Positions 13,166 through 59,585 of a DNA stretch of 64,000 nucleotides are shown here, piece after piece. The notes beneath the pieces were generated by a model, which saw only the letters and a list, made by a program, of their open reading frames with translations, did not search any database and had not been told where the DNA came from. The number at the start of each line of letters is the position of its first letter. The stretch's first letter is position 1. The translations under genes and the position numbers were made by a program. The stretch covers positions 1,660,769-1,724,768 of the forward strand of contig NZ_LT671417.1 of the NCBI RefSeq assembly GCF_900128445.1, given 5' to 3'. The DNA comes from Thermophilibacter provencensis (GTDB lineage: Bacteria > Actinomycetota > Coriobacteriia > Coriobacteriales > Atopobiaceae).

Positions 13166-13452
13166 GTACTCAGTTCCGCATCTGCGCACGGTGCGGCGCG
13201 CAGTTGCGGAACTGAGTACGGCACCGTACACACATCCGGAACTGAGTACCGAGCGGGGGCCTGTCCGGTACGCAGATGCGCATCTGAGTACCATCTCGCG
13301 CCGGGGCCGTACGCACATCCGGAACTGAGCATGGTGCCGTACGCACATCCGGAACTGAGCACGGCGCCGTACGCAGATGCGGAACTGAGCACGGCGCTGC
13401 ACGCAGATGCGGAACTGAGTGCCGCGCCGTGCTCAGACTCGGAAGTGAGTAC
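13166..13452. repeat. Array A of a 24-bp interrupted palindrome, nine copies
   Basis: Copies start at 13166, 13196, 13226, 13268, 13309, 13339, 13369, 13399 and 13429; each is 24 bp, and neighbours are spaced exactly 30 bp apart except around the fourth copy. The layout is GTRC, one free base, CA, two free, a TSCGSA-like core, two free, TG, one free, GYRC. An example is the copy at 13226 with core TCCGGA. The 6-bp linkers are GC-rich. Copies differ by several bases yet keep CA, TG and the outer boxes. Confidence 0.95.
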
Positions 13453-29788: not shown

Positions 29789-29800
29789 CCTGCATCCCGG

Positions 29801-29869
29801 ACCTGACAAAGGTGACAGGGTCAACTGTCATGATTTTCATGACAGTTGACCCTGTCACCTTTGTCAGGT
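29801..29869. repeat. Perfect 33-bp palindromic hairpin element
   Basis: Left arm 29801-29833 (beginning ACCTGACAAAGGTGACAGGG) is the exact reverse complement of 29837-29869, with a 3-bp TTT loop. It lies 12 bp after ffh and 16 bp before the 3' end of the convergent L,D-transpeptidase gene. Its AT-richer sequence differs from the surroundings. Such TGACAAAGGTGACAG hairpins resemble REP elements moved by IS200/RAYT-type transposases; it could also end transcription from both sides. Confidence 0.9.
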
Positions 29870-29884
29870 CGCCTTTGCCGTCGC

Positions 29885-32353: not shown

Positions 32354-32767
32354 GGCCGCGATCTCGGGGCGTTTTTCTCGCTAGCGCGACGTTCTTCTCG
32401 GTCGCGGCGCTCTGCCGCACGCCGCGCGTCTCGCCGCTGCGTTGTCCCTTGCGGCGCGCCGTCCTTTCTGGCGCGCTGGCGCCCTCGTTCCGCTGCCTCT
32501 TCGCTCTGCCTTAAGTCATGGGCACTCAGCTCCGCATCTGAGTACTGGATGGTGCTCACTTCCGGAACTGCGTACGGCGTGGTACTCATTTCCGCATTTG
32601 CGTACCACCCGAAGCCCCCATGGCCTCCAAACCTGGAATTGCGTCTCATCGACGCCGAGAGTCGGCACTCAGTTCCGCATCTGTGTACGGCGTGATACGC
32701 ATCTCCGGAACTGCGTATCATTTCATGCTCAATTCTGGATTTGCGTACCGTGACCCAAGAGCCGTGA
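32354..32767. other. Gene-free region holding palindrome array B
   Basis: About 414 bp between the methyltransferase stop and the 3' end of the AbiEi/DUF559-like gene. It contains GTTTTTCTCGCT at 32371, GTTCTTCTCGGT at 32391 (12-mer variants), a GC-rich stretch and array B. No supported gene. Confidence 0.7.
32522..32748. repeat. Array B of the 24-bp interrupted palindrome, seven copies
   Basis: Copies start at 32522, 32552, 32582, 32623 (degenerate), 32665, 32695 and 32725, with 30-bp spacing inside each group of three. The layout is the same as array A: outer GTAC-like boxes, CA and TG at fixed places, a TCCGGA/TCCGCA core. In the copy at 32695 both outer boxes have changed together (ATAC with GTAT), so the ends stay complementary. 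Confidence 0.93.
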
Positions 32768-33862
32768 CTACGTCGCCGCTTCGCGTGGGAGCTCGCGCGA
32801 CCCCTCCATGAGGAGGTGGTCGGACCGCCCGGTCCAGGTGAGGCCGTCGATTCGCTCGAGGTCATGCCAGAGGCGCTCGCGCCGCGCCCGCCTCGCCTCC
32901 AGCGCCCCCGGCCTGAGCCGCAGCTCCTCGAGCCCGAGGTCGCGGCGGATGTGCGAGACGAGCCAGTCGAGGTAGTCGGGGTCGTCGTAGTGCTCCTTCT
33001 CGATCTCGTACGGCTTGACGCCGCAGGCGAGCAGCTCGTTGCGACGATTGGTGTCGCGCCCGGCCTGAATCTCGTCGCGATGATAGCCTCCCTGGTAGTC
33101 GAGGGCGCAGCCGCGAAACGGGATGGAGCCCTCCGGCGCGTCCGCTGGAGCGAGCAGCATGATGTCGGGCTTTCTGATGCGCTCGCGCGACGCGGCAAGC
33201 GTCGCATCGGCGCGCTCGACGAGGACCGGGTCGTTGAGCGCCACGACCTCGAGGCCGTACCCGCCGAGGCGCGGGGAGAACTCGAGGCGATGGACCGTCT
33301 TGCTCCCGCGCGGCGACCCGGAGCGCTCCCGCGCGCGTCCGACGGCGCGCCGAAGCTTCGATGCCCCGCGGGGCGTGCTCGCGCGGTCGAGGTAGTCCAG
33401 GATTCGCCTCGTGCTCGTGAGCGGGTCCGATCGCTTGACGAGTCCCTTGCTTGCGCGCGGCTGAATCCCGTAGTGCCCGCAGAGCTCGTCCACGAGGAGA
33501 AGGAGCTCGAGGTCGGTGGCATACTCCGCCATCTGGAGCAGGACGAGCTCCGGCGACGCGCAGTGCACCTCGGGGGAGAGCGAGAAGAACGAGCCGGGCG
33601 GTTGGAGCGCCTGCGTCTGGTGCGCGACGAGCAGCTCGGAGCGATGTCGCGCCGTCGTTCCGGAGACGATGACGTGATAGGGCGGCCGGAGCGCCGAGAG
33701 CGCCTCGACGCGCCCCAGGGCCTCATCGCATCTCCGCAGTTCGGGCATGCGCTCTGGCGGTCGAGCAGACCCTTCTTGCCGGCCCCGCTCTAGGAGTCGC
33801 GGCGCGTTCCAGCAGCGGAGAACCTCGAGTGCAGTGGTATGTGAAAGGCAGATGGTCATCAT
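32768..33862 (-). CDS. AbiEi-like protein with DUF559/Vsr-type nuclease-like C-terminus
   Basis: 364 residues, single gene. The N-terminal part has ICLSHTTALEVLR, then a strand-rich middle with SPEVHCASPELVLLQMA (about 95-111), a pattern seen in AbiEi-type antitoxin/regulator proteins of actinobacteria. The C-terminal part has KPDIMLL near 235, then CALDYQGGYHRDEIQAGRD and NELLACGV, which fits the PD-(D/E)xK Vsr-like/DUF559 layout (acidic strand, D-Y-Q-G, H, D-x-x-R, L-x-x-G). Start ATG 33862 has no clear ribosome site; ATG 33859 is equivalent. Arrays B and C of the palindrome lie on either side. Function is not established; nuclease activity is inference. Confidence 0.55.
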   Translation of the reverse strand: MMTICLSHTTALEVLRCWNAPRLLERGRQEGSARPPERMPELRRCDEALGRVEALSALRPPYHVIVSGTTARHRSELLVAHQTQALQPPGSFFSLSPEVHCASPELVLLQMAEYATDLELLLLVDELCGHYGIQPRASKGLVKRSDPLTSTRRILDYLDRASTPRGASKLRRAVGRARERSGSPRGSKTVHRLEFSPRLGGYGLEVVALNDPVLVERADATLAASRERIRKPDIMLLAPADAPEGSIPFRGCALDYQGGYHRDEIQAGRDTNRRNELLACGVKPYEIEKEHYDDPDYLDWLVSHIRRDLGLEELRLRPGALEARRARRERLWHDLERIDGLTWTGRSDHLLMEGSRELPREAAT

Positions 33863-34081
33863 GCATCGAGCGTAGCGCGCTGCGGGTCGTCCCGGCTGGG
33901 GATTGTGCGAAAGCTCGCCAGCTTGCTGCCGCGAAGCGTGCGCGACGCTGACCAGACCATCCGTTCGCGCAGGTCATACAACTTGACATAAGACGAGGTA
34001 CTCGAAGAAGGCGTGCCGCGGCCGACCGCTCCCGGCCACAGTCCGACCGTCCGCCGCCCGTGCGCCACGAAACACGCTCGG
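33863..34081. other. Spacer between the AbiEi/DUF559-like gene and array C
   Basis: About 220 bp with mixed composition. An isolated TTGACA at 33984-33989 on the plus strand has no matching -10. Short frames here have no start signal or family resemblance. Confidence 0.5.
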
Positions 34082-34514
34082 GTGCTCAGTTGCAGAAATG
34101 AGTACGAAGCGGTGTTCACTTTCGGATTTGCGTGCGGCGCGGTGCGCACATCCGGAAGTGAGTGCCTCCTCAGCGCGCAGCCGGTCGGGTCGGGCGAGAA
34201 GAACCTCGGGTTTTGGTTTGCCCGGCGCCGACGCCGGCCCGAGGCGGCACTCATATCCGGAAGTGCGTGCTGCGTCGTACACAGCTCCGGAAATGAGTAC
34301 CGAGATATGCACAATTCTGGATATGAGTACCACGCTGCGCACAGTTGCGGATGTGCGTGCTGCATTGAATGCGGTTGCGGGCGTGAGTGCCGTGCTGCGG
34401 CGCACTCAGTTCCGGAAATGAGTGCCGTTCCGTGCGCAGTTGCGAAAATGAGTACGGCACGGCACGCAGATGCGGAAGTGAGTCCGCGCCATGAGCAGCT
34501 CCGAATCCGCGCGC
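34082..34514. repeat. Array C of the 24-bp interrupted palindrome, eleven copies plus one degenerate
   Basis: Copies start at 34082, 34112, 34142, 34247, 34277, 34307, 34337, 34367 (weak), 34402, 34432 and 34462, with a decayed copy near 34491. Spacing is 30 bp within groups. The copy at 34402 is nearly a perfect palindrome (GCACTCA outer arm, TTCCGGAA centre, TGAGTGC outer arm). Between copies three and four lies an exact GGCGAGAAGAAC (34193-34204). The array ends about 15 bp before the ftsH terminator. Confidence 0.94.
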
Positions 34515-56954: not shown

Positions 56955-59585
56955 ATGGCAAAGACGCGCGTACATGACCTCGCGAAGGAATACGGGATGT
57001 CGAGCAAGGAGATGCTCGGGCACCTCGCCGACATGAAGATACCGGCCAAGTCGGCCTCCTCGACGCTCGAGGACGCCTACGTCTCCATCGTGCGCAAGAA
57101 GCTCAAGCCCATCCTCGAGGCCCGCGCCGCGGAGATCGAGGCCGCCAAGCGCGCCGAGGAGGAGGCCAAGGCAGAGGAGGCCCGCATCGCCGCCGAGCAG
57201 GCCGAGGCGGAGCGCATCGCCGCCGAGGAGCGCCGCGAGCGCGAGCGCGCCGAGGAGGAGCGCCGCCGCGCCGCGGCGGAGGCGGAGCGCAAGGCCAAGG
57301 AGGCCGCCAAGGCAGAGGCCGAGCGCAAGGCTCGCGAGGAGGCCGAGAAGAACCGCGTGCGCGACAACGCGCCGAAGTCCGTCCCGTCCTTCTCGTCCCT
57401 GCTCGACCAGATCGCGCAGCAGGAGGAGGTCCTCAAGCGCCAGGCCGAGGAGGCCGCGCAGAAGAAGGCCGCCGAGAAGGGCGGCCGCGCCCGCAGGGCA
57501 GACGGCGCGCGCCCGGCCGGCAGGCGCGGCCCCGCCCCCGCCCCCGCGGCGCAGCCCGGGCCGAGCGCCCCGGCGTCCGACGACGGCCGCCGTCGCGGGA
57601 AGAAGGGCCGCCGCGGCGGGGAGGGCGGCGAGGACCGCTACAGCCGCATGGCGCGCGAGGCCGAGGCCTATAACCGCAGCCGCGTCCTCGAGGAGGCCCG
57701 CGTGGCCGTCGAGGAGGCGTCGCGCGAGTCCACCGGACGGCGCAAGCGCCGCAAGGAGCGCCGCCAGAAGCAGGCCGAGCAGGCTGCCGAGCAGCATCGC
57801 ATCGAGGAGGCCATCGCCAACGACCAGGACCTCTCGCAGCTCGACACCGTGAGGGTCCCGCAGGGCTCCACCGTGGGCGAGCTCGCCGAGCTCCTCGGCG
57901 TGCCGGCCAACGACATCATCAAGCGCCTCTTCCTGCTGGGCACCCCGCTCACGCTCACCGAGTCCATGTCCGACGAGCTCATCGAGCTCGTGGCCGACGA
58001 CCTCGGCCGCGACGTCAAGGTCATGACCAAGGAGGAGGAGAACTCCTTCACGTTCTACGACGACCCCGCCGACCTCAAGCCGCGCCCGCCCGTGGTCACG
58101 GTCATGGGCCACGTCGACCACGGCAAGACGTCGCTGCTCGACGCCATCCGCCACACGGGCGTGGCTGAGGGCGAGGCCGGCGGCATCACGCAGGCCATCG
58201 GCGCCTCCCAGGTCAAGATCAACGGCCGCACGATCACCTTCATCGACACCCCGGGCCACGAGACCTTCACGGCCATGCGCGCCCGCGGCGCCAAGGTGAC
58301 CGACATCGTCATCCTGATCGTGGCCGCCGACGACGGCGTCATGCCGCAGACCGTGGAGTCCATCAACCACGCCAAGGCCGCCGGCGTCCCCATCATCGTG
58401 GCCGTGAACAAGATCGACAAGCCCGGCGCCAACCCCGACAAGGTGCGCCAGGAGCTCACCGAGTACGGCGTCATCCCCGAGGAGTGGGGCGGGCAGAACA
58501 TGTTCGTCAACATCTCCGCCAAGCAGAAGATCGGCATCGACGAGCTCCTCGAGACCGTCATCCTCCAGGCGGACGTCCTCGAGCTCAAGGCCAACCCGGA
58601 CACCTTCGCCTCCGGCAACGTCCTCGAGGCCAAGCTCGACCGCGGCCGCGGCTCGGTTGCCACCGTCCTCGTGACGCGCGGCACCCTGCACATCGGCGAC
58701 GCGCTCGTGGCCGGCATGGCCTACGGCCGCGTCCGCGCCATGCTCGACCCCAAGGGCAACTCCGTCACCGAGGCCGGCCCCTCCGACGCCGTGGAGATCC
58801 TCGGCCTCCAGAGCGTGCCTATGGCCGGCGACGAGTTCCGCGTCTTCCAGGACGACCGCGACGCCCGCGACCTCGCCGACCAGCGCGCCCTCAAGGCCCG
58901 CATCGAGGAGCAGAACCGCGTCAAGCACGTCACGCTCGAGAACCTCTTCGACACCATGGCCGACGCGGAGGTCAAGGAGCTCAACCTCATCATCAAGGCC
59001 GACGTCCAGGGCTCGATCGAGGCGCTCCAGGACTCGCTCGACAAGATGGACCAGTCCGAGGTCCGCATCAACACGATCCACTCCGCCGTCGGCGCCATCA
59101 CGGAGACCGACGTCGTCCTCGCGGACGCCTCCAACGCTATCATCATCGGCTTCGGCGTGCGCCCGGAGGCCAAGGCCCGCGCTGCCGCGGAGCGCGACGG
59201 CGTGGAGATCCGCACCTACAGCGTCATCTACAAGGCGATCGAGGACATCGACGCCGCCCGCATCGGCATGCTCAAGCCCACCGAGGTCGAGGTCCAGACC
59301 GGCACCGCCGAGGTCCGCGACACCTTCAAGGTGCCCAAGGTGGGCATCGCCGCGGGCTGCATGGTCCAGGACGGCGAGATCTCCCGCGACGACCAGGTCA
59401 GGCTCGTCCGCGACGGCATCGTCGTCTACGACGGCAAGATCGCGTCGCTGCGCCGCTACAAGGACGACGTCAAGAGCGTGAAGGCCGGATTCGAGTGCGG
59501 CATCGGCCTGGAGAACTTCCAGGACGTCAAGCCCGGCGACATCATCGAGGGCTACCGCATCGACCAGGTCGCGCGCACCGAGTAG
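56955..59585 (+). CDS. infB: Translation initiation factor IF-2
   Basis: 876 residues. A N-terminal domain (about 1-55) is followed by a long Ala/Glu/Arg-rich helical linker (about 55-300). The G domain starts [18 protein letters not shown] near 379, with DTPGHETF near 433 and [11 protein letters not shown] near 487. Domains II-IV follow, ending with the fMet-tRNA-binding C2 domain. The linker is low-complexity and highly charged, as in other high-GC actinobacteria. ATG 56955 follows GGAAGG. Confidence 0.97.

Follow-up and report, generated by a model that had tools for sequence, protein, structure and literature searches.

Few repeats are as common in bacterial genomes as short dispersed palindromes. 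For those outside the RAYT/REP pairs, how they arose is still an open question, and the locus described here, where they are paired with a common nuclease family, raises it anew: what does a nuclease-like gene have to do with the arrays on either side of it? The window, by which we mean the whole stretch of DNA analyzed (64,000 nucleotides; G000:C3:1660769-1724768), comes from the 2.63-Mb genome of Thermophilibacter provencensis (G000), an Olsenella-type member of the Atopobiaceae. A weight matrix built from the window sequence retrieved 25 copies of a 24-bp palindrome with the consensus GTACTCAGTTCCGGAACTGAGTAC, and ten shuffled windows scanned at the same threshold gave 0 sites. The copies form array A (positions 13166-13452, 9 palindromes), array B (32522-32748, 6 palindromes) and array C (34082-34485, 10 palindromes). 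Array B lies downstream and array C upstream of a reverse-strand gene (32768-33862), at gaps of 19 bp (32748 to 32768) and 219 bp (33862 to 34082); the original prediction had given this arrangement exactly. It had also described array A as having no such gene nearby, and array A is indeed solo, with no nuclease gene beside it.

Two other kinds of repeat occur in the window. Imperfect repeats of 18-30 bp in a GC-rich stretch (57169-58004) may encode a low-complexity protein. A further dispersed repeat, a hairpin of ~70 bp, CTGACAATGGTGCCGGGGTCGT...ACGACCCCGGCACCATTGTCAG (L103:2360-2444; G000:C3:1690567-1690639, window about 29799-29871), is found at dozens of places in G000 and the related genome G018 but at few in a second relative, G012; a linked gene was not identified. 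This hairpin was rejected as a family-linked repeat because it does not adjoin paralogues of the window gene.

The gene is an open frame across 364 codons. Taken alone, its 364-aa product gave zero Pfam, NCBIfam or PADLOC matches and fell below the Pfam curated cut-offs for DUF559 and MTES_1575. An alignment of 41 family members delimits a nuclease domain at about aa 183-285 (33008-33316, reverse strand), marked by S183-P-x-E186, D233, [D/E]-Y256, H261, D270, and R273. S183, G201, N210, D233, and H261 are invariant in this alignment, E186, Y256, D270, and R273 are kept in at least 90% of its members, and the Vsr-like/EDxHD residue set E...D...(D/E)...H...D is present. The alignment profile matched PDB entry 3r3p, the EDxHD homing endonuclease I-Bth0305I, at an E value of 8.6e-4; weak Pfam matches were found in 8 of the 41 members for MTES_1575 (PF18741) and in 5 for DUF559 (PF04480). 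Some distant members bracketed by repeats (L225, L227, L237, and L223) pass the DUF559 or MTES_1575 cut-off. An AlphaFold model of the window protein was good (pLDDT 89.4, pTM 0.90). With this model, a fold search of the PDB returned weak matches, all above E 0.1, and the top matches in a viral fold library were a DUF559 protein and a Vsr-like endonuclease (E 2-3e-3, probability 1.0). The N-terminal ~180 aa match nothing. From the conserved residues, the profile match to 3r3p, and the fold-library matches, we conclude that the protein comprises a predicted Vsr/DUF559-like nuclease domain and an N-terminal part of unassigned fold.

The label first given to the gene, AbiEi/DUF559-like, thus stands for its second half, at the level of profile and fold. 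No AbiEi domain was matched in any of the 41 members, so membership in AbiE toxin-antitoxin systems has no support; no AbiEii toxin gene lies next to the window gene, whose neighbors encode a SpoU methylase and FtsH. Neither the window protein nor the 41 members gave a Transposase_17 (HUH/Y1) Pfam match, the matches instead being of nuclease type. The gene is free-standing and intergenic, and no intron, intein, or cut-allele setting was found. In one genome pair it is 76% conserved versus 88-99% for all neighbors compared, and in two other pairs it is not the least conserved gene; we therefore put no weight on this rate comparison.

The relation between gene and repeat becomes visible across orthologues. 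All eight named orthologues (52-99% identical) are flanked by palindromes on both sides, and the palindrome sequence follows the protein clade: GTACTCAGTTCCGGAACTGAGTAC accompanies the window gene and its orthologues in Olsenella sp. SW781 (99% protein identity) and Olsenella uli An733 (76%), GGACCCAAATCCGGATTTGGGTCC accompanies L095 and L096, CGACTCATTTCCGCAAGTGAGTCG accompanies L097, and TTGCTCAATTCCGGATTTGTGCGC accompanies L098-L100. A CnCAnnTCC core is common to most half-sites of these four palindromes. Among 30 genomes compared, window-type arrays are confined to those bearing the orthologue (G000, G012, and G018). Single diverged window-type copies lie beside the 54% identical orthologues of G013 and G014, and one match to the pattern was found in G029, from another family of the same order. 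An array in species lacking any such gene had been named as evidence against the link; window-type arrays are absent from G001-G011, where the orthologue is missing and paralogues are at most 43% identical.

Twelve family members are encoded in G000, and up to 13 in its relatives. The proposed test of whether such genes lie beside the 24-bp arrays more often than expected comes out in favor for the orthologues, but not for the other 11 G000 paralogues; the window gene alone adjoins these arrays, and several of the paralogues have palindromes of their own. Strict palindrome counting overlooked most of the paralogue repeats, which were detected by comparing left and right flanks. In this test, the best local alignment between the 800 bp to the left and the 800 bp to the right of each gene was taken. 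Homologous flanks were found at E<1e-6 for 56 of 81 members versus 4 of 87 control open reading frames (ORFs), and at E<1e-9 for 46 of 81 versus 0 of 87; the 81 members include a few near-duplicates (L045/L095 and L046/L047), and the overall picture is the same. Most members carry their own repeats on both sides, usually as two copies of one long imperfect palindrome of 60-420 bp. The copies are oriented both inverted and direct, as they are near-symmetric. The test was negative for about 30% of members, some of which have a palindrome on one side alone. A short word, CTTCTCGCC / GGCGAGAAG, recurs in the intergenic DNA of L050, L051, L012, and L046. The original prediction had called the link between gene and repeats positional only, a reading not borne out by the bracketing of every named orthologue, by a palindrome that changes with the protein, or by the flank counts.

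Bracketing extends beyond the order. Relatives at E<1e-8 are carried by 45 of 198 Actinomycetota genomes; in the distant ones, the match lies mostly in the nuclease domain. At 7 of 16 testable distant loci the two flanks were homologous (E<1e-9), and mismatched flank pairs in distant genomes gave none in 127 even at E<1e-6. In annotated plasmid records of Tsukamurella, Arthrobacter, and Nonomuraea, five of six matches are bracketed, and in all five the downstream copy begins with the base that directly follows the stop codon. A generic DUF559 query (a self-written consensus) was searched against annotated records, and 6 of 10 loci were bracketed at E<1e-4: Sinorhizobium (114 bp, 96%), three Deinococcus loci, Azospirillum lipoferum, and Picosynechococcus 7003, of which only Azospirillum and Sinorhizobium belong to the Pseudomonadota. 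No bracketing at that threshold was seen for the loci of Escherichia coli, Sphingomonas, Methylobacterium, and Azospirillum brasilense. With 150-bp flanks and E<1e-6, 9 of 10 annotated DUF559 genes were bracketed (on Tsukamurella, Sinorhizobium, Deinococcus, Azospirillum, and Picosynechococcus plasmids) versus 0 of 10 annotated neighbors. Counting the gene-side copies, the repeats occupy 34 places in the Sinorhizobium record, 8 per Picosynechococcus plasmid, and 3 in the Deinococcus record. In Rhizobiaceae and relatives, a matching repeat occurs in 226 plasmid records, a minority of which were examined for a nearby DUF559 gene.

Every member palindrome tested also has solo copies in its own genome. 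For the window palindrome, G000 has six solo sites (L101-L106). Orthologous sites exist for five of them in G012 and for four in G018, their flanks roughly 90-99% identical and their copy numbers different; several array sites are conserved across three species. The repeat of member L004 occurs at no fewer than eight further places in G000, and the element of the distant actinobacterium G037 has six solo copies. For the G017 member, 39 palindrome copies are spread over about 15 solo sites; nine of these lie on the gene's own contig, whose 299 kb make up about 12% of the genome. The gap holding array A in G000 contains an array in G012 and G018 and a single copy of G017's own palindrome in G017; G000 and G017 both have palindromes in this gap and in one within the ribosomal-protein operon, in each case with the sequence proper to the genome. 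Inside that operon, a palindrome array precedes rplE in four genomes (L101:3248-3559, L113, L115, and L199). The genes beside solo arrays have no evident common theme, and tblastx between array sites gave composition noise and nothing else.

Sites differ between related genomes, being gained and lost. Solo array L110 of G012 is missing in G000, and an apparent half-palindrome remains at this site in G018. A solo array of G017 (L196) occupies the place of the right array of L097; compared with G017, the piece by the nuclease gene in L097 (L097:3626-7169) is inverted between two arrays, as if it had been flipped by recombination between them. The gene itself occupies a site where relatives lack it: 10 of 10 have spoU next to ftsH with no copy of the gene between them, the gap being 44-426 bp in the nine measured; likewise, the site of the L095/L096 unit (lexA side to hflX) is a 44-bp gap in G012. 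The gene-less spoU-ftsH gaps of G009, G013, and G014 (L137, L144, and L145) hold repeats that, judged by eye, resemble other members' palindromes, so this gap may be a hotspot. The ends of the spoU-ftsH unit are too diverged for a target-site duplication to be read, and at the one solo array examined base by base, neither such a duplication nor an exact insertion end was apparent. Close relatives keep the gene at one locus, and movement must therefore be rare.

How the palindromes are read can be approached through their spacing and variation. Adjacent window palindromes lie 30 bp apart, or about 41, 52, 84, 94, 104, 113, or 125 bp, and the 27 spacings of G000 other than 30 bp are phased at 10.4-10.5 bp (R=0.89). 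Across 186 window-clade sites from three species, mirrored positions showed no positive covariation beyond free combination of half-sites, with the exception of one outer position (z=2.8), and position 9 was matched less than expected (z=-3.5). Hairpins of RNA or DNA were set aside as improbable for these palindromes, as the covariation expected of pairing is absent from the 186 sites. Because the half-sites vary independently and the spacings are helically phased, window-clade palindromes look like duplex half-sites for a dimer that would bind one helical face. This argument covers the window clade; in distant members, the palindromes are built with long arms and loops, and a role as hairpins is conceivable for them.

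We favor, and hold to be somewhat more likely than not, the reading that the gene and arrays B and C form one unit, in which a nuclease and the palindromic sites it recognizes spread by cut and repair. The genomes compared here display the bracketing, the member-specific palindromes, the dispersed solo copies, the co-variation, and the gain at a site empty in relatives; binding, cleavage, repair-based spread, and mobility of the unit are what we infer from them. In such a mechanism, the protein would bind the duplex palindromes as a dimer, with one monomer to recognize each CnCAnnTnC half-site, and the nuclease would nick or cut in or near the arrays. Repair of the break from another copy would keep copies alike, alter their number, and seed new solo arrays at other intergenic sites. 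Occasionally, the gene between two arrays might be carried to a new site. Each family member has diverged to its own palindrome.

Four other explanations were weighed. The best of them, which we nevertheless regard as unlikely, takes the palindromes to be operators and the protein a regulator of itself and of a regulon through phased arrays, its nuclease fold being a leftover or a minor activity. Helically phased dyad arrays do resemble operators, half-sites that vary independently would suit them, and several array sites are common to three species. However, the gene has arrays on its downstream side too, which often begin at the stop codon, sites are gained and lost such that related genomes differ, catalytic residues are conserved, and the genes beside solo arrays lack the evident theme of a regulon. 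Slightly less credible is a homing-type passenger, a gene that inserts by palindromes already present (its target rather than its product) while another enzyme spreads the repeats. The closeness of the nuclease domain to I-Bth0305I speaks for this explanation, as does the Rhizobiaceae-type repeat in its 226 plasmid records. Yet the splitting of one palindrome predicts half on each side where two full copies are observed; moreover, window-type palindromes are absent from gene-less relatives, and the palindrome tracks the protein clade.

We consider it improbable that the system is a defense or addiction device, in which foreign or post-segregation DNA is the target of the nuclease and the palindromes serve as self-markers or as sinks that restrain it. 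DUF559/Vsr folds are known in restriction-like proteins, and there are single weak PADLOC matches, but nothing else defense-like was recognized beside the window unit, tblastn found no relative of the window protein in a collection of phage records, and solo arrays scattered over conserved intergenic sites would not be expected of such a device. Finally, chance, or genome-wide intergenic repeats that happen to adjoin the gene, deserves hardly any credence: repeats are common in these GC-rich intergenic regions, and the ~70-bp hairpin is dispersed without a tie to the nuclease family, but chance is refuted at the level of flanks by the control ORFs (46/81 versus 0/87), the mismatched pairs (0/127), and the annotated neighbors (9/10 versus 0/10).

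Returning to the idea of a nuclease that spreads with its palindromes, we propose more tentatively that a new class of palindromic elements, mobile or self-spreading, could have its dedicated enzymes in the Vsr/DUF559-type nucleases of several phyla, each with a specificity that co-evolves with its repeat, and that these nucleases could explain many orphan families of dispersed bacterial palindromes, including some rhizobial, deinococcal, cyanobacterial, and actinobacterial ones. Several hosts have laboratory genetics (Picosynechococcus 7002 and Sinorhizobium), making the enzyme-repeat pairing directly testable, and the many natural pairs of enzyme and target site are a resource for learning how specificity evolves.

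Among known systems, the nuclease domain is closest by profile to I-Bth0305I among solved structures; I-Bth0305I is, however, a mobile-intron enzyme, whereas the window-family genes are free-standing between palindrome copies. The domain is likewise shared with DUF559 (PF04480) and REase_MTES_1575 (PF18741), and genuine DUF559 genes are similarly bracketed, but the window protein lies under the Pfam thresholds and has its matchless N-terminal ~180 aa. In the open-access text searched, no literature linking DUF559 or Vsr-like genes with palindromic repeats was found. Orphan palindromic repeats (CGTC REPs and untagged families) are likewise scattered between genes, and for one large class it is stated that no dedicated transposase exists (PMC3733652); the window repeats resemble them in their dispersal and differ in that a candidate enzyme accompanies each repeat of the family.

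The nearest known kind is the REPtron, whose RAYT (TnpA-REP) is an HUH/Y1 single-strand transposase. RAYT genes are flanked by two REPs with which they co-evolve, and in some genomes the copies concentrate around the gene (PMC2817692); REPtron repeats are recognized as single-strand hairpins (PMC8266576). The window family shares the gene between two cognate palindromes, the dispersed solo copies, the co-evolution of palindrome and enzyme, and copies that can gather close to the gene. It differs in having a Vsr/DUF559-like nuclease in place of the HUH/Y1 transposase, in a consensus with no unpaired GTAG (or CGTC) tag, and in mirrored positions that, in the window clade, do not co-vary as those of a hairpin would. 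The original comparison with REP elements and RAYT therefore holds for bracketing and dispersal, and not for the enzyme or for the window sites, which look like duplex half-sites rather than hairpins. With an unrelated enzyme, no GTAG tag, and duplex-like window sites, the system is not a REPtron, and because the defining enzyme of that nearest kind, RAYT, is absent, we call the putative nuclease-palindrome system a new category. The best reading of the unit's outcome is nonetheless REPtron-like, a cognate enzyme with dispersed palindromes apparently built on an unrelated nuclease, and if kinds were defined by this outcome, the system would group with REPtrons.
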